Of a DNA stretch of 34,617 bases, positions 1-9,458 are shown piece after piece; the stretch's first letter is position 1, and the number at the start of each line of letters is the position of its first letter. The DNA lies in assembly GCA_011389965.1 (NCBI GenBank), contig JAABTF010000023.1:1-34617 (forward strand), given 5' to 3'. The DNA comes from Halothiobacillus sp. GTDB taxonomy: Bacteria; Pseudomonadota; Gammaproteobacteria; Halothiobacillales; Halothiobacillaceae. The notes below the pieces were generated by a model. That model was not told where the DNA came from, ran no database searches, and saw only the letters and a program-made list of their open reading frames with translations. The position numbers and the translations under genes were made by a program.

Positions 1-111
1 GAGGGTATCGAGGTCGAGGTGATCGGCATGAACCAGGCCACCGCCACGATCGTCGACAAGCACGCCGTCCACGACAAGCCGGACGCCGCCGAAAAGCTGA
101 TGGGGCACTGA
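1..111 (+). CDS. C-terminal end of a SulP-family anion transporter (partial)
   Basis: Only the last 36 codons are present, in frame from base 1 to a TGA at 109-111. The peptide (VEVIGMNQATATIVDKHAVH, then a short charged tail ending LMGH) resembles the end of the cytoplasmic STAS domain of SulP sulfate/bicarbonate permeases, where a GMN motif lies near the terminus. SulP permeases are inner-membrane anion carriers, and the STAS domain is regulatory. A universal stress protein gene starts 20 bases later on the same strand, an arrangement seen beside SulP genes in other bacteria. The assignment rests on a short tail, so the family is likely but not certain; substrate cannot be told. Confidence 0.6.
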   Translation, partial: EGIEVEVIGMNQATATIVDKHAVHDKPDAAEKLMGH

Positions 112-130
112 ACCAATGGGAAACGAGAAC

Positions 131-963
131 ATGAGCGACAACAAGGACCAGGTCCTCGCCTGTATCGACGGCTCGCGGTCCACCGAGGCCGTCTGTGATT
201 ACAGTGTCTGGGCCGCGCAAGCCCTCGAGGCACCGCTGACGTTCCTGCACGCGATCAGCAACCCGCATGCCCCCTCCAAGACCGACCTGTCCGGCAACAT
301 GACCCTGGGCGGTCGGGAGAAGCTGCTCAAGGAGATGGTCGAGCTCGAGGAAAAGCGCGGCAAGCTCGAGCGCGAGCGCGGCCGAGCCTTGCTGGCCGTG
401 CTGATCCCGCCGAGCTGCTGCGCAACGGCGACATCACCGAGGTGATTCTGGAGCTCCAGGAAGCCATGCAGATGCTGGTGATCGGCAAGCAGGGCCGCGA
501 TGGCGAGATGGAGGCCATGCACGTGGGCAGCCACCTGTCGAGCATTCTGTCGATGATCCACCGGCCGACCCTGGTCACGCCGCTCGAGTTCAAGCGCCCG
601 GAGAGTTTCCTGATCGCCTACGACGGCAGTCCCTCGGCCTACAAGCTGGTCGAGATGGCGGCCAACACGCCGCTGCTGCAGGGCCTGCCCGTGCACCTCC
701 TGATGGTCGGCGAGGAGAAGCAGGGCAATTGGGACAAGATGCAGATCGCGAATACCCGGCTGCAGAAGGCCGGTTTCGATACCCAGGTGGCCATCCGCCA
801 GGGCAAGGTCGACGAGGCGGTCTCGATGTATCTCGAGGAAAAGCGCATCGACCTGCTTGCCATGGGGGCCTACGGCCACAGCCCGATTCGTTATCTGGTG
901 CTGGGCAGCACTACCACCAAGATGATCATGAAGGCCAACGTGCCGCTACTGGTGGTGCGCTGA
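131..963 (+). CDS. Tandem universal stress protein (UspA family), frameshifted as assembled
   Basis: Reading frame 2 from ATG 131 gives a first USP domain (VLACIDGSRSTEAV at the N-terminus). Frame 1 from about base 391 gives the rest: LLRNGDITEVILELQEA, GKQGRDG, a second USP repeat starting FLIAYDGSPSA, and the nucleotide-binding signature GAYGHSPIRYLVLGSTT near the end, finishing LLVVR. The two halves join if one base is missing around 391-402, giving about 277 residues, normal for a two-domain USP. USPs are cytoplasmic ATP-binding stress proteins. I prefer ATG 131 to ATG 116 because GGGAAACGAGA lies just upstream of 131. The gene follows a SulP-type transporter and is probably co-transcribed with it. 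The frameshift is more likely a sequence error than a dead gene, because both halves stay well conserved. Confidence 0.85.
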
Positions 964-996
964 ACGACGCTGCTGCGTTCTTCGCCGGGAAAAAAT

Positions 997-1024
997 GAAG
1001 GCCGTGCCTCCGGGCACGGCCTTC
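997..1024. terminator. Bidirectional intrinsic terminator
   Basis: A perfect 12-bp stem (GAAGGCCGTGCC / GGCACGGCCTTC) with loop TCCG lies between convergent genes. An A-run precedes it (T-run on the minus strand) and TTCTTG follows it. It can serve the usp gene (+) and the cytochrome operon (-). Confidence 0.85.
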
Positions 1025-1052
1025 TTGCATCCGTCAACGTCGGGATGCCGCC

Positions 1053-1799
1053 TTATCGGGTCGCGTCATCCTCGGTTGAGTAGTACTCCGCCAAGTTGGC
1101 GATTTCCTCGTCCGTCAGGGGCTCGGCAAACTGCGACATGCCGTGGGCCACGTCATTGCCGCGTTCGCCGTCACGGAACAGCGCCATGGTGCGAATGAAG
1201 TAGGCCTCCGGCTGGCCGCGCAGGGTGGGCGACTCGTTGATGCCGCCTGAGCCATTGCTGCCGTGGCAGGCCGCGCAGGGCGTGATCAGCCGGGTCGGGT
1301 CGCCGACACTGACCAGCTGGTGGACTGGATGGGTATCTTCCGGCTTGGGCGCGTCGGGGAGCCCCTGCTGCTCGTAGAACGCGGCCAGGTCGGCCATCTC
1401 CTGGCGGTCCAACTCCTCGGCCGCGACGTTCATGATGTGCGCCCGCTGATCCTCGGCGCGTCGATGCTCCGCGTAGTCCAGCAACTGCTTGTAAGTGTAC
1501 TCCGCCCGCTGCCCGGCGAGCAGCGGCCAGTTGCCGGTAAGTGCTTCGCCCCGGCTGCCGTGACAGGAGGCGCAGAACTTGTCGTCGTGGAGCTTTTCGC
1601 CCCGGGCCGCATCGCCGGTGGGCATGGTCCGCATGGTCTCGTGCCAGGTGGCCGGTGTCCATTGGGCGACCTCGGTCTTGCCGGCGCCGGTCGCAGCCAG
1701 CGCGGTGGTGGGAAGAGCCATGGTGGCCACGGTCGCCACGGTCGCGATGCCGGCAAGCAGGGCGTGGCGAGTGGATCGATGGTGTTGTTGAGTTGTCAT
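1053..1799 (-). CDS. Periplasmic diheme cytochrome c (c4-like)
   Basis: 248 residues. A signal peptide spans about residues 1-35 (hydrophobic AGIATVATVATMALP, cleavage after ALA). Two heme c attachment sites follow: CASCH at 76-80 and CAACH at 175-179. Each has a candidate Met axial ligand about 45 residues later (M123 and M221). Two similar cytochrome halves joined by a linker match the cytochrome c4 family, which carries electrons in the periplasm to terminal oxidases. Start chosen at ATG 1799, preceded by GGGAAGGTGA; the frame is open further upstream, but only as a shadow of the neighbouring membrane-protein gene. It is the last gene of the sulfide dehydrogenase/bd-like cluster, 14 bases after the preceding stop, so it is probably the soluble electron donor or acceptor of that membrane module. 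Confidence 0.92.
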   Translation of the reverse strand: MTTQQHHRSTRHALLAGIATVATVATMALPTTALAATGAGKTEVAQWTPATWHETMRTMPTGDAARGEKLHDDKFCASCHGSRGEALTGNWPLLAGQRAEYTYKQLLDYAEHRRAEDQRAHIMNVAAEELDRQEMADLAAFYEQQGLPDAPKPEDTHPVHQLVSVGDPTRLITPCAACHGSNGSGGINESPTLRGQPEAYFIRTMALFRDGERGNDVAHGMSQFAEPLTDEEIANLAEYYSTEDDATR

Positions 1800-1813
1800 C
1801 GTGTCACCTTCCC

Positions 1814-3037
1814 TTACTTGTAGGCGGTCCAGAGGCCGAAGCCGAAGTACTGGGCGATCCAGAGCAGAAGCAGCACCACTCCGGCGGTACCCAGCAGGTT
1901 GACGGCACGAGACGGCGTATACGTGCCTTCCGTCTGCCCCGCCTGCCAGGCGATGGTCAGGAGGTAGGCGACGATGGTGCCGCCCAGCACCCCGAAGGTG
2001 AGAAAGAACAGGCCAGTGCTGTACCAGTCCATCGCGATCTTGTAGTCGAGCGGGTTGTAGCCGTGTACCCCGAACAGGGTGACCCAGCGCACGGCCTCGC
2101 GCATCGTGGCCACGACGATCATGGCGACCGTCGCAACCAGGACGGGCGTGTAACCCCACATGCCGCGGTCGAGCCGCTTGCCGAGCAGTACCGGGTAGGC
2201 CACGGCCACGATCAGCGCGGCGGCCGCGGCTATGGGCCAGATGCCGGTGGCAAAGTCACTGATATCTTCCGGCAGGCCGCGCATCCAGAGGGTCAGCAGG
2301 ATCAGGGAAATGACACCGCCAACGGCGCCCAGGCGCGTGCCGAGGCGTTGCAGGAAGTCGAGATAGCCTGCATCACTCTCGCCCGCACCCTGGAGATAAC
2401 GGCGGTAGCCGAACAGCCAGATGCCGATTACCGGGAACGACAGCAGGATGAAGAAGCCAAAACGCCAGGGATCGAAGGCATGGATCGAACGGCCGGAGGC
2501 GTCGATCACCCCGTTGGGGGCATACCACTCGCGCCACTGGTCGGGCTCGAGGGTCTGCACCGACAGGGCATGCATGATGAAGCCGACGACCAGAAAACCG
2601 ATGATGGCGATGATCATGGCGCTGGGCGCACGTACCTTCTTGTGCCGGATCTCGTAGTTCATCGCGTAGAAGATGAACAGCGCCAGGGTCGCGACGATCA
2701 GGATGAAGATGAACGCGATCACCCACCAGGCGGAGAGCACGTTGGACGTGTACCAGAACGGGTCGTAGATCACCTGCACGAACAGCAATGGTGCGACCCC
2801 GATGACGATGGCGACCGAGACGGCCACCTTGGCGGTGTTGACCATCGCATCGGCCAGACGACGCCAGTGATCCTGCGCGGAGAATGCCCCGCGGATGGCG
2901 AGTGCCGACGAGCCGAGCAGAACGTGGACCGCCGCGATGTGCAGGGCCCAAGTGAGCACGGCCAGCACCAGGAAGATGACCGGGTGAGCCGGTACGCCCA
3001 GCGGATCCCGCAGGGCATAGAGCATGGCGGTATCCAT
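1814..3037 (-). CDS. Polytopic membrane protein of the bd-like cytochrome cluster
   Basis: 407 residues with about nine predicted membrane helices. Helix 1 carries two histidines (LTWALHIAAVH, H33 and H38). Helix 2 and the following loop read IVIGVAPLLFVQVIYDPFWY, with another helix after it. This layout (His-rich helix 1, then helix 2 ending in an aromatic loop) resembles the N-terminal half of the 471-residue upstream neighbour, so the two may be distant paralogues that pair like subunits of a bd-type complex. No heme c motif is present. Its ATG shares one base with the TAA of the upstream gene (TAATG), so translation is coupled. The exact role is unknown: candidate heme b or quinone-interacting membrane subunit. 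The family name rests on fold-level resemblance and context, not on a diagnostic motif. Confidence 0.8.
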   Translation of the reverse strand: MDTAMLYALRDPLGVPAHPVIFLVLAVLTWALHIAAVHVLLGSSALAIRGAFSAQDHWRRLADAMVNTAKVAVSVAIVIGVAPLLFVQVIYDPFWYTSNVLSAWWVIAFIFILIVATLALFIFYAMNYEIRHKKVRAPSAMIIAIIGFLVVGFIMHALSVQTLEPDQWREWYAPNGVIDASGRSIHAFDPWRFGFFILLSFPVIGIWLFGYRRYLQGAGESDAGYLDFLQRLGTRLGAVGGVISLILLTLWMRGLPEDISDFATGIWPIAAAAALIVAVAYPVLLGKRLDRGMWGYTPVLVATVAMIVVATMREAVRWVTLFGVHGYNPLDYKIAMDWYSTGLFFLTFGVLGGTIVAYLLTIAWQAGQTEGTYTPSRAVNLLGTAGVVLLLLWIAQYFGFGLWTAYK

Positions 3038-4452
3038 TACTTGTCCTCCTCGTCAGAACGATGGTCGAGCTGCGCCGTCTGGCTCTCGGCCCGGTAGCGG
3101 CTCACGGCATCGGGGTCATTGAGGCTGGCGATGTAGACGGCCAGCGCCTCGGCTTCCGCTTCTTTCAGCGGGATCTGCGGCATGTACATGGTGTTGCCGG
3201 TCGACAGGGCGCCCAGCAGATAGGTCTTGATGCCCTCGATATCCGCCTGCTTCGGGAAGTAGTTCTTCAGCGGCCGGATGCCGGTGTCGGACAGCGAGTG
3301 GCAATTGCTGCAAGCCGTGAGTGCTAGGCTGCGGCCCACCTCGGGGGCATTTTCGCGGGTGATCTCGCGCTGGCTTTCCGGCCAGAAGATATGGGCCTGG
3401 GTGAAGCCTGCTTTCTGCAGGGCCGGGATCTCGGATTTCACGCCCATGCCCGGCACGTCATGCCCGATGACCTGGTTGGAATACAGGTATTGTCCCGCGA
3501 TATAGGGCTTGCGGACCGACTCGCGGACGGTCTCGCCCGGCCAGAGTCCCAGCACCAGGATCGCCAGCGTGGCGAAGCCGGCCAGCGTGGCGGTGACGAT
3601 CTTCGGGCGGATGAAGGTGAGGGCGAAGTAGGCCAGCATGGCGCCGAGTACGATCAGGATCGACGGGGTGAAGTAGTCCGGCAACCGGTTCTCCATCACT
3701 AGGTGGGCAATGCCCGGCAGCGTCCCCAGGTACCAGGGATAGAGCGACATGCCGACGATGGCCGACAGGCCGCCGACGATCGCCAGCCGCCTGAGCAACC
3801 ACTGTTTGAAGGCCGCGTCCTTGAGCCCCGCGGCGACGATGCCGCCGACCACGGCGGTCATGGTGAACATGAACGCGGTCCGGATCGCCAACTGGGCGAA
3901 GGTGTTCGGGCCGTAGAAACCGTACAGGTAGCCGCCCTCGGCGAACCACTGCTCCGGGCGACCCGGCATCATCATGAATGAGAGGATGCCGACGATCGCC
4001 AGCATAGTGGTGTACGAGGTCAGGCCGAAAATGATCGCCACCTTCATGTAGGTGCGCCGGTCTAGCTTGCCCGCCATGTAGACCATCATGTAGACGCCGA
4101 TCACCTCGATGACGAAGAACACCCACTCGGTGGCCCACTTCCAGACGAAGTTGTGGATCAGCGCGGAGATGCCCCGCGGGCTGCCCACCGTGGTCGAGTA
4201 CCAGATGCCCGGCCCGGTGATCGAGCCGAGGATGTAGGAAAACACCAGCAGGAACAGGCCGTACTTCTTGATGAAGTCGATCAGCTCCGGCCGGTCGTCG
4301 CGCACGCCGATATAGGCGAGCACCGCGAACAGGATCGCCGCGCCCACCGCCGTGTGCGAGAACAGCACGTGGATGGTGGCGATCAGGCCGATGACCCAGC
4401 CGCTGCCGATGAGCGGCTCGTACCAGGTCGGGAAAAGTCCGATCAGATCCAT
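3037..4452 (-). CDS. Cytochrome bd-like membrane subunit fused to a C-terminal cytochrome c domain
   Basis: 471 residues. Residues 1-300 hold about eight membrane helices with CydA-like features: His in helix 1 (ATIHVLFSHTAVGA, H28 and H33), a loop ITGPGIWYSTTVGSPRG after helix 2, and TEWVFFVIEVIG (E109, E116), recalling the ES/EF-type glutamates of CydA. The canonical CydA Q-loop signature (GRQPW) is absent. Residues about 370-445 form a class I cytochrome c domain with CSNCH at 381-385 and a likely axial Met at MP (M424). The last helix ends near residue 304, so the heme c domain probably lies on the periplasmic side. ATG 4452 has GAGGAGGATC upstream. The gene lies 63 bases after the FCSD flavoprotein gene and overlaps the next gene by one base. 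Inference: a membrane unit passing electrons between c hemes and quinone or oxygen. Confidence 0.85.
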   Translation of the reverse strand: MDLIGLFPTWYEPLIGSGWVIGLIATIHVLFSHTAVGAAILFAVLAYIGVRDDRPELIDFIKKYGLFLLVFSYILGSITGPGIWYSTTVGSPRGISALIHNFVWKWATEWVFFVIEVIGVYMMVYMAGKLDRRTYMKVAIIFGLTSYTTMLAIVGILSFMMMPGRPEQWFAEGGYLYGFYGPNTFAQLAIRTAFMFTMTAVVGGIVAAGLKDAAFKQWLLRRLAIVGGLSAIVGMSLYPWYLGTLPGIAHLVMENRLPDYFTPSILIVLGAMLAYFALTFIRPKIVTATLAGFATLAILVLGLWPGETVRESVRKPYIAGQYLYSNQVIGHDVPGMGVKSEIPALQKAGFTQAHIFWPESQREITRENAPEVGRSLALTACSNCHSLSDTGIRPLKNYFPKQADIEGIKTYLLGALSTGNTMYMPQIPLKEAEAEALAVYIASLNDPDAVSRYRAESQTAQLDHRSDEEDK

Positions 4453-4515
4453 TGGGGGATCCTCCTCTCAGAACACTGGACGGCCCGGGGACTGCCAGAC
4501 CGGTGATTGGTTGCG

Positions 4516-5862
4516 TCAGCCGAAACAATCATCGCTGAAGCTCTGCATCCAGGCGTGCTGGTAAAGGGCGGCGAGGCGATATTGCATCGGAGTGGCGTCG
4601 AACGGCAGGAAGCGCTGCTCATCGACACGCGTGATCCGGCCCTCCTGCAGACGGAATACGTCAGCGACGAACATCCCGTACTCGGTGTTGCCCGCGAGGG
4701 CGTAACAGGTGTTCTGGAACACCGGCTCGACCGGACCGTTCCCGGCCAGCAGGGCCTTGAGCTGTATGGCCAGCACCTTGGCTTGGCTGCTGGCGGCGTA
4801 ACCCGACTTGGGCATGGCGCCGGCGATGCAGGAGTCACCGATCACGTGCACGTCGGCGTGGCGGGTGGACTCGAACGTCCGCTGATCGACCGGGCACCAG
4901 CCCGACTCGTCGGCGAGATCCTGGTCGATCGCGACCTGCCCGGCCTTCAGCGGCGGCACGATGTTGATCATGTCCGCCTGAAAGGTGCCCGCCTCGGCCT
5001 CGACCGTCATGGTTTCGGCGTTGACCCCCAGGATCCGGCCACCCAGATCACCCATGACCCACTCGATCGGGCCCGGGTTCTCGTGATCGGGCATCTCGGC
5101 GAGTTCCTCTGCGCTGTACTTGCCGCGTGCCGGCGCCGGGATGTTGAAGCGATACAGGCGGTTCCAGGCCTGCAGCATGGTGACGTCGGTGGTAAAGCCG
5201 TTCTTCGGATCGAGGATGATCACGCGCGGTGAGGTGTCGCCCCGATCCAGCAGCCACTGGGCGATCAGGCCGGCCCGCTCGTAGGGCCCCGGCGGGCAGC
5301 GGTAGGGATTGGGCGGCGGGCCGATCACCACGGTGCCGTTTTCCGGCACGGCCTCGAGTTGTTTCTTGAGTGCCAGCAGCTGGTCGCCGGCATCCCAGCC
5401 GTGCGGCAGTCGCTGCTCGGCCAACTCGGGCGTCAGGCCGTCGACCGCGTCGAAATCGAAGGACACGCCTGGCGAGACGACCAGCCGGTCGTAATCGAGG
5501 GTGGTGCCATCACTGGTCCGCACGTGCTTGGCGTCGTAGTCGATCGCCGTGACGCGGTCATGGACGAAGCGCACGCCGTGGCGGTTGGCCAGCGCGGCGT
5601 AGGAGATGGTGATGTCCTCCATGGTCGCCTGACCGGTGATGACCTCGCTCGAACCGTAGGGGCGCTGGTATTCCCGCTTGGGCTCGACGATGGTCACCTC
5701 GACTTGCGGGGCGTAGAGCTTGAGGTACTTGGCCGTGGTCGCACCGCCGACTCCGCCGCCGACGATCACGACCCTGGGCTTGGACTGTGCGCTGGCGAGC
5801 GGCGAGAAGGTAGCGGCGCCGGTCGCGCCGGCCAGCTTGAGAAATGCGCGGCGTGAGGTCAT
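4516..5862 (-). CDS. fccB: Flavocytochrome c sulfide dehydrogenase, flavoprotein subunit
   Basis: 448 residues. A twin-arginine signal (SRRAFLKLAG, residues 3-12) predicts Tat export with cofactor. A Rossmann GGGVGG at 35-40 binds FAD. The redox cysteines that react with sulfide in FccB are present: C189 in RCPPGPYERA and C386 in NTCYAL. Further family motifs are GWCPVD at 321-326 and VIGDSCIAGAMPKSGYAA at 340-357. The protein oxidises sulfide to sulfur/polysulfide in the periplasm and hands electrons to a c heme subunit. Unusually, the position of the FAD-anchoring cysteine known from Allochromatium FccB is a proline here (P68 in REYQRPYGSSEV), so FAD is probably non-covalent. The start overlaps the upstream cytochrome stop (ATGA). 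An SQR-like or other FCSD-like sulfur substrate cannot be excluded. Confidence 0.9.
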   Translation of the reverse strand: MTSRRAFLKLAGATGAATFSPLASAQSKPRVVIVGGGVGGATTAKYLKLYAPQVEVTIVEPKREYQRPYGSSEVITGQATMEDITISYAALANRHGVRFVHDRVTAIDYDAKHVRTSDGTTLDYDRLVVSPGVSFDFDAVDGLTPELAEQRLPHGWDAGDQLLALKKQLEAVPENGTVVIGPPPNPYRCPPGPYERAGLIAQWLLDRGDTSPRVIILDPKNGFTTDVTMLQAWNRLYRFNIPAPARGKYSAEELAEMPDHENPGPIEWVMGDLGGRILGVNAETMTVEAEAGTFQADMINIVPPLKAGQVAIDQDLADESGWCPVDQRTFESTRHADVHVIGDSCIAGAMPKSGYAASSQAKVLAIQLKALLAGNGPVEPVFQNTCYALAGNTEYGMFVADVFRLQEGRITRVDEQRFLPFDATPMQYRLAALYQHAWMQSFSDDCFG

Positions 5863-6248
5863 GAGTCGTCCTCCTCTCGGTCACTGCGGTTGAGGGGGGC
5901 GGGGGCCGGTTGGGCGGCGAAATAATCGGCCATCCATTCGATTTCCTGCTCGGTGAAGGCCCGCGCCAGCGGCCCCATCAGCGTCGACGGCCGGGAGTCG
6001 TCGGCGAACGACCGCATGGCCTGAGTGAATCGCTCTGCCGACATGCCGGCGAGCGGCACGAAGGCCGAGTCGCCCAGCTCGCCCTGCGTGCCGTGACAGC
6101 CGGCACAGGTCTGGGCGGCCATCAGGCCTCTTTCGGGAACGGGGGGCTGCGCTGATTCCGCCTGGGACGGCAGGGCAGCCAGCCAGCAGACGGCAGCAAC
6201 CAGGACTACGCCTAGTCGCTGGCTGGTTCGGTGAGTACTTGCAGACAT
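5859..6248 (-). CDS. fccA: Small monoheme cytochrome c, probable FCSD heme subunit
   Basis: 129 residues with a Sec signal peptide (LGVVLVAAVCWLAALPSQA, cleavage near residue 30). There is one heme c site, CAGCH at 48-52, and M91 is a probable axial ligand. Length and single heme fit the monoheme FccA type, not the 21-kDa diheme subunit of Allochromatium. ATG 6248 is preferred to ATG 6254: AAGGAGG lies 7 bases before 6248 but only 1 base before 6254. It is the first gene of the cluster, and its TGA overlaps the fccB ATG (ATGA), as expected for subunits of one complex. The acidic C-terminus (DREEDDS) is a low-complexity tail. Confidence 0.85.
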   Translation of the reverse strand: MSASTHRTSQRLGVVLVAAVCWLAALPSQAESAQPPVPERGLMAAQTCAGCHGTQGELGDSAFVPLAGMSAERFTQAMRSFADDSRPSTLMGPLARAFTEQEIEWMADYFAAQPAPAPLNRSDREEDDS

Positions 6249-6317
6249 GATCATGCCTCCTTCGTGCCTGATGATTCCGTCGGTTGGCGGAGTATCCCGA
6301 CCGATTTCGGTGCCGGC

Positions 6318-6347
6318 ATTATGGCCGATACAAAAAACTTATGGCAA
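6318..6347 (-). promoter_or_regulatory. Candidate sigma-70 promoter of the fcc/bd-like cluster
   Basis: On the minus strand, TTGCCA (6347-6342) and CATAAT (6323-6318) are separated by 18 bases, about 70 bases upstream of the first cytochrome start. The surrounding sequence is locally AT-rich. No operator could be recognised. Confidence 0.5.
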
Positions 6348-6391
6348 GTTTTTCTGTTATCGGTATCGAAGAAGTTGATGTGGGGAGGCGC

Positions 6392-6428
6392 AGAAAAACA
6401 AGAGCCCGACGACTCGAGTCATGCCGGG
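6392..6428 (-). terminator. Candidate terminator after bioD
   Basis: The minus strand reads a GC-rich interrupted hairpin (CCCG...GACTCGAGTC...CGGG, 6428-6405) followed by CTCTTGTTTTTCTG. The stem is imperfect, so confidence is moderate. Confidence 0.45.
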
Positions 6429-6458
6429 TGGGAGGGGGCCACGATCTATCCGGATCGG

Positions 6459-7163
6459 TCAGGGTGGCAGGAGTGGTGCCAGTTGCTCGGGTCGGCCATC
6501 GAAACGCAGCACCGGGGGCGGGTGCGCCACCAGCCGAGGTAGCCACTCGGCAAGCGAGGCGTGGTTGTCCGGCGTGTCGGCATCGTCCGGATCCTGGGGG
6601 CGCCGGTTAAGGACGATCGCGGCCACCGGGATGCCCCGATGTTCGAGGGATTCGGCGGCTGCCAGCGTGCTCGACAAGGTGCCGAGCCGGTCGGGGGTGA
6701 CCAGCAATGCCGGCAGGCCGGTGTATTCGGCCAGGCGCACGTTCAGCGCATCGTCTGCCAGCGGCGAGAGCAGTCCGCCGGCACTCTCGATGATCAGGCG
6801 TTCCTCGGTTGCCAGTTCGGCCAGAGATTGATCGAGAATTGGGGCCAAGTCGCGCTTGAAGCGCAACGCTTGCCCCTCGCGTCGCGCGGCCTCGGGGGCG
6901 GCGACCGGGGTGAGATAGCGGATCGGGCAGACGGTCTCGAGCGACTCGCGCTTGCCGGCGGCCGCCTGCAGGGCCACGCCGTCGGCAGGGAGGCGTTGGC
7001 CGTCGCGAGCCTCGCAGCCGGTCTCCACCGGCTTTCTCACCCGGGCAGCCAGGCCCTGTTCGCCCAACAGCCGGGCGAGTGCGCAGGAGACCACCGTCTT
7101 GCCCACGCCGGTGTCGGTAGCCAGTACGACCCAGCCGCGCGAGTCATGGGTGCCCGTGCTCAT
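6459..7163 (-). CDS. bioD: Dethiobiotin synthetase
   Basis: 234 residues. The P-loop-like motif ATDTGVGKT (residues 15-23) is the BioD signature, with RKPVETG at 43-49 for DAPA/CO2 handling and IIESAGGLLSPLADD in the middle of the protein as the conserved glycine-rich segment. BioD forms the ureido ring of biotin from 7,8-diaminopelargonic acid, CO2 and ATP in the cytoplasm. The ATG overlaps the purC TGA by four bases (ATGA), so translation is coupled to purC. No other bio gene is in the window. Confidence 0.93.
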   Translation of the reverse strand: MSTGTHDSRGWVVLATDTGVGKTVVSCALARLLGEQGLAARVRKPVETGCEARDGQRLPADGVALQAAAGKRESLETVCPIRYLTPVAAPEAARREGQALRFKRDLAPILDQSLAELATEERLIIESAGGLLSPLADDALNVRLAEYTGLPALLVTPDRLGTLSSTLAAAESLEHRGIPVAAIVLNRRPQDPDDADTPDNHASLAEWLPRLVAHPPPVLRFDGRPEQLAPLLPP

Positions 7164-8077
7164 GCGATGCCGGGCAGGTCCTCGCCGGTCAGCCGGCGAT
7201 AGGCCGTCAAGTAGCGCTCGCGGGTCTGCTCGACGATCTCGTCGGGGATGGCCGGGCCGGGGGCGGTCTTGTCCCAGTCGAGCGTCTCCAGCCAGTCGCG
7301 GATGAACTGCTTGTCGAACGACGGTGGGCTGATTCCCGGGCGATACTGGTCGGCAGGCCAGAATCGCGAGGAGTCCGGGGTGAGGGCCTCGTCGATCAGA
7401 TGCAGGCGGCCGGCCTCGTCGAGGCCGAACTCGAACTTGGTGTCGGCGATGATGATGCCGCGCTTGGCGGCATACTCTGCGGCCATGCGATAGAGCACCA
7501 TGGCGGTGTCGCGAACCTGATTGGCCAAATCCTCACCGATTAGCTTGACGGTTTCGGCAAAGTCGATGTTTTCGTCGTGGTCGCCCACGTCGGCCTTGGT
7601 TGCCGGCGTGTAGATCGGTTGGGGCAGTTTGTCGGCCAGTTGCAGTCCCTCGGGCAGGGCGATGCCGCAGACCGCACCGGTGGTCTGGTAGTCCTTGTAG
7701 CCGCTGCCGATGAGGTAGCCACGTACCACCGCCTCGATAGGCAACGCCTTGAGGTTGCGGACGATCACGCTGCGCCCCTCGAGTGGACGACGCTGCTCTG
7801 CGTCGGGGATGACCTTGGCCAGATCCTGGTCGTCGCAGAGATGGCTGGGAACGAGCCCGCTGCTTTTCTCGAACCAGAAGCGCGATATCTCGGTGAGTAC
7901 GCGTCCCTTGTCGGGAATCGGTGTGGGCAGGATCACGTCGAAGGCGGAAACCCGGTCGGTGGTGACGATCAGCATGCGCTCCTCGTCGATCCGGTACAGG
8001 TCGCGCACCTTGCCGCGATGAATCGGTTCAAGGCCTTCAATGCGGGTTTCGAAGACGGCGGAAGACGAGTGTGTCAT
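7160..8077 (-). CDS. purC: Phosphoribosylaminoimidazole-succinocarboxamide synthase
   Basis: 305 residues, the longer SAICAR synthase form. N-terminal GKVRDLYRIDEERMLIVTTD is the ATP-binding start. EAVVRGYLIGSGYKDYQTTG and the C-terminal segment IIIADTKFEFGLDEAG are family signatures, the latter holding the metal/ATP acidic residues. It ligates aspartate to CAIR in purine synthesis. The gene is divergent from the exported redoxin fusion (about 55 bases between starts) and is followed by bioD with a 4-base overlap. Confidence 0.96.
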   Translation of the reverse strand: MTHSSSAVFETRIEGLEPIHRGKVRDLYRIDEERMLIVTTDRVSAFDVILPTPIPDKGRVLTEISRFWFEKSSGLVPSHLCDDQDLAKVIPDAEQRRPLEGRSVIVRNLKALPIEAVVRGYLIGSGYKDYQTTGAVCGIALPEGLQLADKLPQPIYTPATKADVGDHDENIDFAETVKLIGEDLANQVRDTAMVLYRMAAEYAAKRGIIIADTKFEFGLDEAGRLHLIDEALTPDSSRFWPADQYRPGISPPSFDKQFIRDWLETLDWDKTAPGPAIPDEIVEQTRERYLTAYRRLTGEDLPGIA

Positions 8078-8132
8078 GTGGGATCAACTGTTAGCATTCT
8101 AAGGATCTGATCGTCGGCGCTGGGTGATGTTT

Positions 8133-9458
8133 ATGCGAAAGAGCGCTTTGTCGGTGGGCTGGCGATGCCTGATCGGGCTGCTGGGGGCGTGGTATCTCAG
8201 TACCCCGGCACTGGCGGACATGAGGCTGCCGGTCGCCTCGAGCGGTGATCTGCTCGATGTCCGGGTGATCGAGCCCGAGGGCGGTGGCGAGTCGAATGCC
8301 CCGCTGGTGCTCTGGGTGGTCAACCAGTACGGTGAGCTGCCCGGCCCGGAGAGCGTGGCCCATGAACTGGCCCGTCAGGGGGCGACAGTCTGGATGGTCG
8401 ACCTGATGGATTCGTTGTTCCTGCCGCGGTCCGATGTCGAGGTGCGTCGTGTAGACGGAGCTCCCGTGGGTTCTTTGATCTCCCGCGCCGTGCGGGAGAG
8501 GCGGCCCACAGTCGTGGTCGGGGCCGATCGTATGGCCGTGCCCGTGCTGCGTGGCATGCGCTGGTGGCAGCAGCGCACCCATGACGCATCGCAACTGGCC
8601 GGGGCCGTGCTGATTTTCCCCAGCCTGTACCGAGGGGCGCCGGTGGCCGGCGAGGACCCCGAGCTGTTCTCCATCGTGGATGCCACCAACCTGCCCGTGA
8701 TGGTTTTGCAGCCGGAGCGGGGCGTGTACCGCCATCGCCTGCTGGAGCTGCGTGAGCGCTTGCTTGCCGCCGGCAGCCCGGTGTTTTTCCGCCTGCTTCC
8801 TGACGTGCGTGACTATTACTACCTGCATCTCGACGAGCCCCGTCTCGAATCGCTCGAGGGGCTGGAAGATCTCATGGATGCCGCCGAGGCGCGTGCGACC
8901 CAGGCCCTTCCCGGGCAGATCCTGCAGTCCATCCCGCTTCTGGCTGGGGCCGACCATGAGGATGAGGTGCGGGATCTCGATCCGGAGCGCACCACCCCCA
9001 TCGATCGGCAGACCGGGCTGCAGCCGGTGGACGGCGAGCCTGCCCCCCATTTCGAGCTGACGGATCTCCAGGGCGACACGCAGCGTTTGCAGGACGACTT
9101 CGACGGCGTGCAGATCGTCAACTTCTGGGCCACGTGGTGCCCGGCATGCGTGGAGGAGATCCCCTCGATGGAGCGCATGGCGCAGCGTTATCCTGACCGG
9201 CTGAAAATCTACGCCATTGCCTTCAAGCAATCACCTGAGCACCTGCGAGAGTTCATGCAGGACTTCGACGTCTCCTTCCCCGTGCCGGTGGATGTCGACG
9301 GCGAGGTGGCCGCGCGCTACGGTGCCTTTGCCTTCCCCACTTCCTTCCTGGTGGCCGCCGACGGCCGCATCCATTACTCAGTCAATGCCGGCATCATCTG
9401 GGACACGCCCGAAGTCGACGCAATCGTCCGCGAATTGCTGGAGATTGAGTCGGAATAG
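8133..9458 (+). CDS. Exported alpha/beta-hydrolase-like domain fused to TlpA-like thioredoxin
   Basis: 441 residues from ATG 8133, chosen because GGGTG lies 6 bases upstream; GTG 8124 and ATG 8127 are alternatives in the same frame. The signal peptide ends STPALA at about residue 28. Residues 40-235 look like an alpha/beta-hydrolase core (APLVLWVVNQYGE, ATVWMVD, TVVVGADRMAVPVL, VMVLQP). The usual GxSxG serine is replaced in GADRM, so it may be inactive. Residues about 300-441 are a TlpA/ResA-like thioredoxin domain with active site WCPAC (335-339) in FWATWCPAC and the cis-Pro loop FPTSFLV. Such domains reduce periplasmic disulfides, for example in cytochrome c apoproteins. The gene stands alone; a link to the nearby cytochrome cluster is inference. 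Confidence 0.85.
   Translation: MRKSALSVGWRCLIGLLGAWYLSTPALADMRLPVASSGDLLDVRVIEPEGGGESNAPLVLWVVNQYGELPGPESVAHELARQGATVWMVDLMDSLFLPRSDVEVRRVDGAPVGSLISRAVRERRPTVVVGADRMAVPVLRGMRWWQQRTHDASQLAGAVLIFPSLYRGAPVAGEDPELFSIVDATNLPVMVLQPERGVYRHRLLELRERLLAAGSPVFFRLLPDVRDYYYLHLDEPRLESLEGLEDLMDAAEARATQALPGQILQSIPLLAGADHEDEVRDLDPERTTPIDRQTGLQPVDGEPAPHFELTDLQGDTQRLQDDFDGVQIVNFWATWCPACVEEIPSMERMAQRYPDRLKIYAIAFKQSPEHLREFMQDFDVSFPVPVDVDGEVAARYGAFAFPTSFLVAADGRIHYSVNAGIIWDTPEVDAIVRELLEIESE

Follow-up and report, generated by a model that had tools for sequence, protein, structure and literature searches.

Flavocytochrome c sulfide dehydrogenase (FCSD) and the cytochrome bd superfamily, with its OR-C and OR-N families, are already known (available text of PMC10839748, PMC11707229, PMC12342949 and PMC13189123). 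Here we describe a locus in which members of these families appear to be linked, a cluster of five genes that we term A to E, in a 34,617-nucleotide contig of a Halothiobacillus species (JAABTF010000023.1; the whole stretch is referred to as the window). The OR-C family was reportedly defined by Murali, Gennis and Hemp in 2021 as CydA proteins that carry a heme c domain and lack a quinol site, and we know of no OR-C enzyme that has been characterised biochemically. Protein C of the window, which shares both features, would qualify by that definition. The linkage of an FCSD subfamily to a bd-like C-D-E module appears to be new, as the open literature, in those portions of the papers that were available, gave no account of a bd-like module sharing an operon with FCSD; the 2021 paper, which lay outside that search, may touch on it.

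The likeness to OR-C (named in the accessible portions of PMC10839748, PMC11707229 and PMC13189123) lies in a CydA-fold protein, C, with a candidate ligand set, no quinol loop and a C-terminal heme c domain on the CydA-like subunit; the window module differs in sharing an operon with FccAB and a c4-type cytochrome, and in its CydA-type second subunit, D. The pairing of C with D also recalls the OR-N CydAA' proteins of Nitrospinota and Nitrospirales, putative bd-like pairs of two CydA paralogs (PMC10839748, PMC12342949) for which cytochrome c has been proposed as donor (PMC10839748). Those pairs, however, belong to nitrite oxidisers or lie downstream of alternative complex III, FCSD goes unmentioned in the available text of the two papers, and the subunit make-up, function and oxygen affinity of the OR-N relatives are described there as still unproven. 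A sulfide dehydrogenase is tied to one oxidase in the Aquifex SQR-ba3 supercomplex, and Methylacidiphilum has a sulfide-insensitive terminal oxidase that is raised by sulfide (PMC10205796, in part); there the components are SQR, quinone and a heme-copper oxidase, whereas in the window they are FCSD, cytochrome c and a bd-like pair. According to its genome report, Guyparkeria SCN-R1 has an FccA with one heme, oxidases of the cbb3 and ba3 types and no SQR; a bd-like module goes unmentioned in the accessible part (PMC6504805). The role of FCSD in vivo is itself described as unsettled, since knockouts keep their sulfide oxidation rates (PMC10892978, in part).

The five-gene cluster and its FCSD

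The five genes probably specify a respiratory branch dedicated to sulfide oxidation, running from FccAB through cytochromes c and a bd-like C-D pair to O2. It can be seen from the open reading frames (ORFs) and a Pfam scan of the 34.6 kb window that A-B-C-D-E lie together on the minus strand, with spacings of -4, 63, -1 and 14 bases at A-B, B-C, C-D and D-E respectively, which agrees with the overlaps and short gaps of a preliminary description of this region. Gene A (5859..6254, minus strand) encodes a mono-heme, FccA-like cytochrome c with a signal peptide and one CxxCH. Its Pfam scores are 21.7 bits for Cytochrom_C (over the cut-off of 21.3) and 26.1 bits for Cytochrome_CBB3 (1.1e-5, below the cut-off of 27), and the top PDB matches are FCSD heme subunits (3vrd_A, 3.7e-11; 1fcd_C, 1.1e-10), in their first heme domain. 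Gene B (4516..5862, minus strand) encodes an FCSD flavoprotein of the FccB subfamily, as judged by Pfam (FCSD_central, 106.9 bits with a cut-off of 27; FCSD-flav_bind, 58.6 bits with a cut-off of 26), PDB matches, tree and cysteine tally, and its three closest solved structures are all FCSDs (5n1t_A, 1.2e-101; 3vrd_B; 1fcd_A).

The products of B and A therefore match the flavoprotein and heme subunits of known FccAB (1fcd, 3vrd, 5n1t), and the redox-active cysteine pair, Cys161 and Cys337 of 1fcd, is present in 52/52 operon FccBs. They differ in that operon A has one heme, the covalent flavin adenine dinucleotide (FAD) cysteine is replaced in the window, B falls in a clade of its own, and the genes are linked to those of a membrane pair. 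The FAD cysteine, Cys42 of 1fcd (the A. vinosum FCSD), is a trait of characterised members that we do not take as defining; its position holds Pro in window B, Pro, Cys, Gly and Ala in 31, 17, 3 and 1 of the 52 operon FccBs, and Cys, His and Gly in 20, 1 and 1 of 22 other FCSDs. In a tree of 74 FccB sequences, built by a quick method with support from the Shimodaira-Hasegawa-like approximate likelihood ratio test (SH-aLRT) and no bootstrap, the 52 operon FccBs and a tandem copy in locus L049 formed a single clade (SH-aLRT 100), outside which lay 21 other FCSD-like sequences, including the second FCSD of the window genome (L160). Judged by sequence, operon FccB is a subfamily of its own. L049 has an additional A-B-E set (2127-4528) upstream of a complete operon, and in L073 (3927-13366) the operon is repeated head to tail, the second copy being cut at the locus end.

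The separate clade and the altered flavin pocket would fit an operon FccAB that oxidises something other than sulfide, such as polysulfide, organic persulfide or thiosulfate-linked sulfane, as would the at least two FCSD matches in each of the seven genomes with FCSD-linked C in the class sample described below (the second location is known for six; for G172 there is the count alone). We regard this as unlikely, as the redox-active cysteines are kept throughout and the nearest solved structures are sulfide dehydrogenases.

Thiobacillus sp. W5, a Halothiobacillus relative, reportedly has an FCSD that is bound to the membrane and whose small subunit holds one heme (Visser et al. 1997). The single heme is shared with operon A, and the operon would explain the membrane binding; L160 also has a single-heme FccA, so operon FccAB is no more than a candidate for the W5 enzyme.

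In a tree of C, the FCSD-operon proteins and two more at contig ends formed a single group (SH-aLRT 94), with L156 and L117 adjacent, and a second type of C formed a separate clade (SH-aLRT 100); the program warned of long branches. Distances in the B and C trees correlate (r 0.64 with n 51, against at most 0.16 in 1000 shuffles), to which shared organism history contributes. Gene order, the separate FccB clade, this correlation and a D-E fusion described below all point to an FCSD tied to a dedicated membrane module, as had been proposed.

Predicted structure of C, D and E

Gene C (3037..4452, minus strand) encodes a membrane protein with eight long helices and a C-terminal c-type heme domain, and gene D (1814..3037, minus strand) a second membrane subunit. 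Structural comparison placed the predicted structures of both in the CydA fold of the bd superfamily, which argues against their belonging to an unrelated complex already characterised, an outcome that the preliminary description had named as fatal to its proposal. In seven of the bd structure entries listed, chain A is subunit I; the best matches of D are likewise subunit I chains, although CydB has the same fold as CydA and each entry is listed with a single chain. Profile probabilities for D were 1.9 for CydB and 0.2 for CydA.

Candidates for the active-site residues H19, E99, E107, E445 and R448 of CydA can be recognised in C. His28 (4369..4371, minus strand) is equivalent by hhalign to the heme ligand H19; Glu109 to Glu116 (4105..4128, minus strand) probably correspond to E99 and E107, E116 being matched by eye and the spacing being 7 rather than 8; and E311-x-x-R314-x-P316 (3505..3522, minus strand) is the probable equivalent of E445-x-x-R448-x-P450 at the heme b595 site, in a register for which local hhalign is weak (probability 2.2, E 0.021) and which agrees with the range covered by the structural alignment. 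All three features are kept in 56/56 C sequences and in 5/5 more distant members, the registers of the candidate set H28, E109, E116, E311 and R314 resting on weak profile alignments and the fold range. The C-terminal cytochrome c domain (3118..3345, minus strand) has CxxCH at 381-385 and Met424 as probable axial ligand, with C381, C384, H385 and M424 invariant in 56/56; it scores 0.0012 with Pfam Cytochrom_C, below the cut-off, and matches PDB cytochromes c-552/c-551 from E 0.015 upward. In D, H33, E314 and R317 (as E314xxR317) are kept in 54/54 sequences and counterparts of E99 and E107 are absent.

The preliminary description left the acceptor as quinone or oxygen. Oxygen is the likely one by our reading, whereas quinone is unlikely, because the canonical Q-loop of CydA is absent from the models, where loops in that region have 4 to 5 residues, and because the b558 ligand H186 of CydA aligns, weakly, with Gln187 of C. 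The Q-loop residues K252 and E257 are invariant in 20/20 CydA, and C does not have the quinol site of the qOR family, M393 being outside the alignment. The missing quinol loop also makes it very unlikely that C-D serves, in place of an oxidase, as an electron conduit linked to quinone or crossing the membrane, passing electrons for instance from cytochrome c to quinone in reverse electron flow; moreover, the invariant H/E/E/E/R set resembles an O2-reducing diheme site, and the Z score of the best CydA match is higher by 5 to 6 units.

Gene E (1053..1799, minus strand) encodes a diheme cytochrome c4-like protein with two CxxCH motifs in two c heme domains (Pfam Cytochrom_C, 4e-20; top PDB match cytochrome c4, 6q2u_A, 2.6e-17). 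In L154 a diheme E-like domain (residues 417-608) is joined to D in one protein, and FccAB is missing from the C-D-E locus of L156. From these two loci C-D-E is probably the core unit, with FccAB a later addition placed between D and E.

Distribution, gene order and regulation

In a sample of 27 genomes of the family, C was found in 14 and D in the identical 14, as two paralog types. FccB lies in the cluster in 10/13 loci of the FCSD type: eight, including the window, read A-B-C-D-E, G014 has A-B-C up to the contig end and G021 has C-D-A-B-E; the remaining three (G022, G024 and G026) run into a contig end. All seven loci of the second type read C-D-mono-heme c, with no FccB within the fetched stretch. 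Both types occur together in 6/27 genomes (G018, G020, G021, G022, G024 and G026), which suggests from gene content that one cell may have two bd-like pairs. Within the window genus the operon is patchy (4/11 genomes, its own counted). The window comes from a Guyparkeria relative, its C protein sharing 89% identity with the one in Guyparkeria hydrothermalis.

A scan of 84,980 species genomes gave 383 pattern matches and 373 relatives, of which the best 80 by similarity to the query yielded 79 loci, in Thioalkalivibrio, Thiothrix, Thiobacillus, Thiomonas, Thiomicrorhabdus, Hydrogenovibrio, Hydrogenophaga, Rhodoferax, Limnohabitans and others. The full five-gene set was found in 68/79 (67 by script, and L042), and the other 11 end at most 139 bases from the locus end, so the genes do occur together in many genomes, as the preliminary description had expected. 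Most loci are arranged as C-D-A-B-E, 58 of them in plain form, A-B-C-D-E being the order of the window's kin. L113, on a contig labelled Deltaproteobacteria/Myxococcota, has a full operon that branches among Burkholderiales, and reflects either transfer or a binning error.

In an even sample of 369 genomes of the class, 17 matched, seven by the c domain alone, leaving ten real C genes, of which seven stand beside FCSD (G000, G001, G084, G172, G217, G321 and G361). FCSD itself was found in 133/369 genomes (127 over the cut-off), which makes the operon a minority form. A distant C-D pair in L155 (G274, 1-9034), with a heme c domain on both subunits, stands beside methane/phenol monooxygenase-like genes, namely two Phenol_Hydrox proteins and a reductase; in L156 a hydroxylase-like start, a fragment without a Pfam match, was seen by eye about 7.5 kb from C-D-E.

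Sites of the sigma-54 -24/-12 type lie at most 350 bases upstream of C in 8/76 operon loci (0.08 expected from single-base shuffles), these being L052, L055, L058, L061, L062, L064, L066 and L108, with the site identical in L055 and L108; the same scan found none upstream of the window operon. In L047 a PAS and sigma-54 activator gene precedes the operon, and similar ORFs occur in 19 other loci. A very distant stand-alone C-D pair in L187 (G464, 259-4858) adjoins genes for a sigma-54 activator and for a Crp-type regulator, and a catalase-like gene was noted nearby by eye, a setting that may point to stress or nitric oxide (NO) control. Together with the link of cytochrome bd to NO and peroxide resistance (PMC8657789, in part), the sites and the L187 setting would fit C-D being a bd-like reductase for NO or peroxide rather than O2, with the operon protecting sulfide oxidation or detoxifying. 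We think this quite unlikely: L187 is remote from the operon type, the ORFs of its 10.9 kb contig, read by eye, include no FCSD, both glutamates of the bd O2 site are retained in C, and a dedicated sulfide dehydrogenase as electron supply fits energy conservation better.

The operon ends at an intrinsic terminator (997..1024, minus strand; a 12-pair stem with 9 G-C and a T tail), by far the longest stem among 4 terminator-like sites in the region, where 1.9 were expected. An AAA_26 BioD-like gene and a SAICAR synthetase (Pfam), with a universal-stress-like frame seen by eye, flank the operon and are apparently unrelated. The window is contig 120 of a 2.0 Mb genome, 85% complete.

A proposed route from sulfide to oxygen

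In the branch that we favour, FccAB would oxidise sulfide or related sulfane in the periplasm, and the single FccA heme would donate electrons to the heme c domain of C, to E, or to both, the help of E being probable. The active-site hemes of cytochrome bd lie near the periplasmic side, so the heme c domain of C could feed a two-heme, bd-type active site in C without b558. D, which is CydA-like, would partner C in place of CydB, and O2 would be reduced to water with quinone bypassed. We infer complex formation, the direction of electron flow, O2 as acceptor, the heme types and insensitivity to sulfide.

Several observations weigh against this proposal. When full profiles are aligned with CydA by hhalign, C gives a weak match (probability 12.5) and D none, and the E445/R448 registers are weak by sequence in D (E 0.17) as in C. 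Neither window protein has a Pfam or NCBIfam CydA match, nor do the C proteins of L033, L156, L155 and L187 match CydA in Pfam; with PF01654, L032 barely passes (26.7 bits, cut-off 26.2) and L029 falls below (16.9). The kinship to CydA therefore rests on the fold, the motifs and the marginal score of L032. The model of C is moderate, with a predicted local distance difference test score (pLDDT) of 74.3 and residues 85-107 below 50. The only invariant His residues in the membrane part of C are H28, H33 and H100; H33 and H100, with H156 and H186 of D, are unexplained, so an additional heme is possible. The 79 loci are nearest relatives and not a survey of all, and three of the ten class-sample C genes (G160, G162 and G274) are not beside FCSD. 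COX1-type oxidases are present in 5/5 genomes checked, giving FCSD electrons another exit. Judged from sequence and models, the oxidase activity, spectrum and complex of C-D are putative.

The five-gene co-occurrence and the bd fold of the membrane pair nevertheless support the distinct sulfide-oxidising respiratory system that had been suggested. Canonical CydA was not found in the window genome (at its 85% completeness) or in two congeners, where COX1-type oxidases were found. Sulfide tolerance is a plausible selective reason for the operon: bd oxidases of E. coli are insensitive to H2S, while bo3 has a half-maximal inhibitory concentration of 1.1 uM (available text of PMC8657789), and C-D would share that tolerance. 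More tentatively, FccAB might dock on C-D-E as a cytochrome c-based sulfide:O2 oxidoreductase supercomplex with two CydA paralogs and a changed FccB flavin linkage. In many sulfur oxidisers among the beta- and gammaproteobacteria it would form a terminal branch insensitive to sulfide, which would account for FCSD bound to membranes and for the retention of two FCSDs in such genomes.

An FCSD subfamily with its own bd-like pair would have a specific, testable job, that of respiring sulfide when heme-copper oxidases are poisoned, and the operon is a possible entry to cytochrome c-linked bd-like enzymes. If this is true, cells with the operon may keep breathing where sulfide poisons ordinary oxidases.
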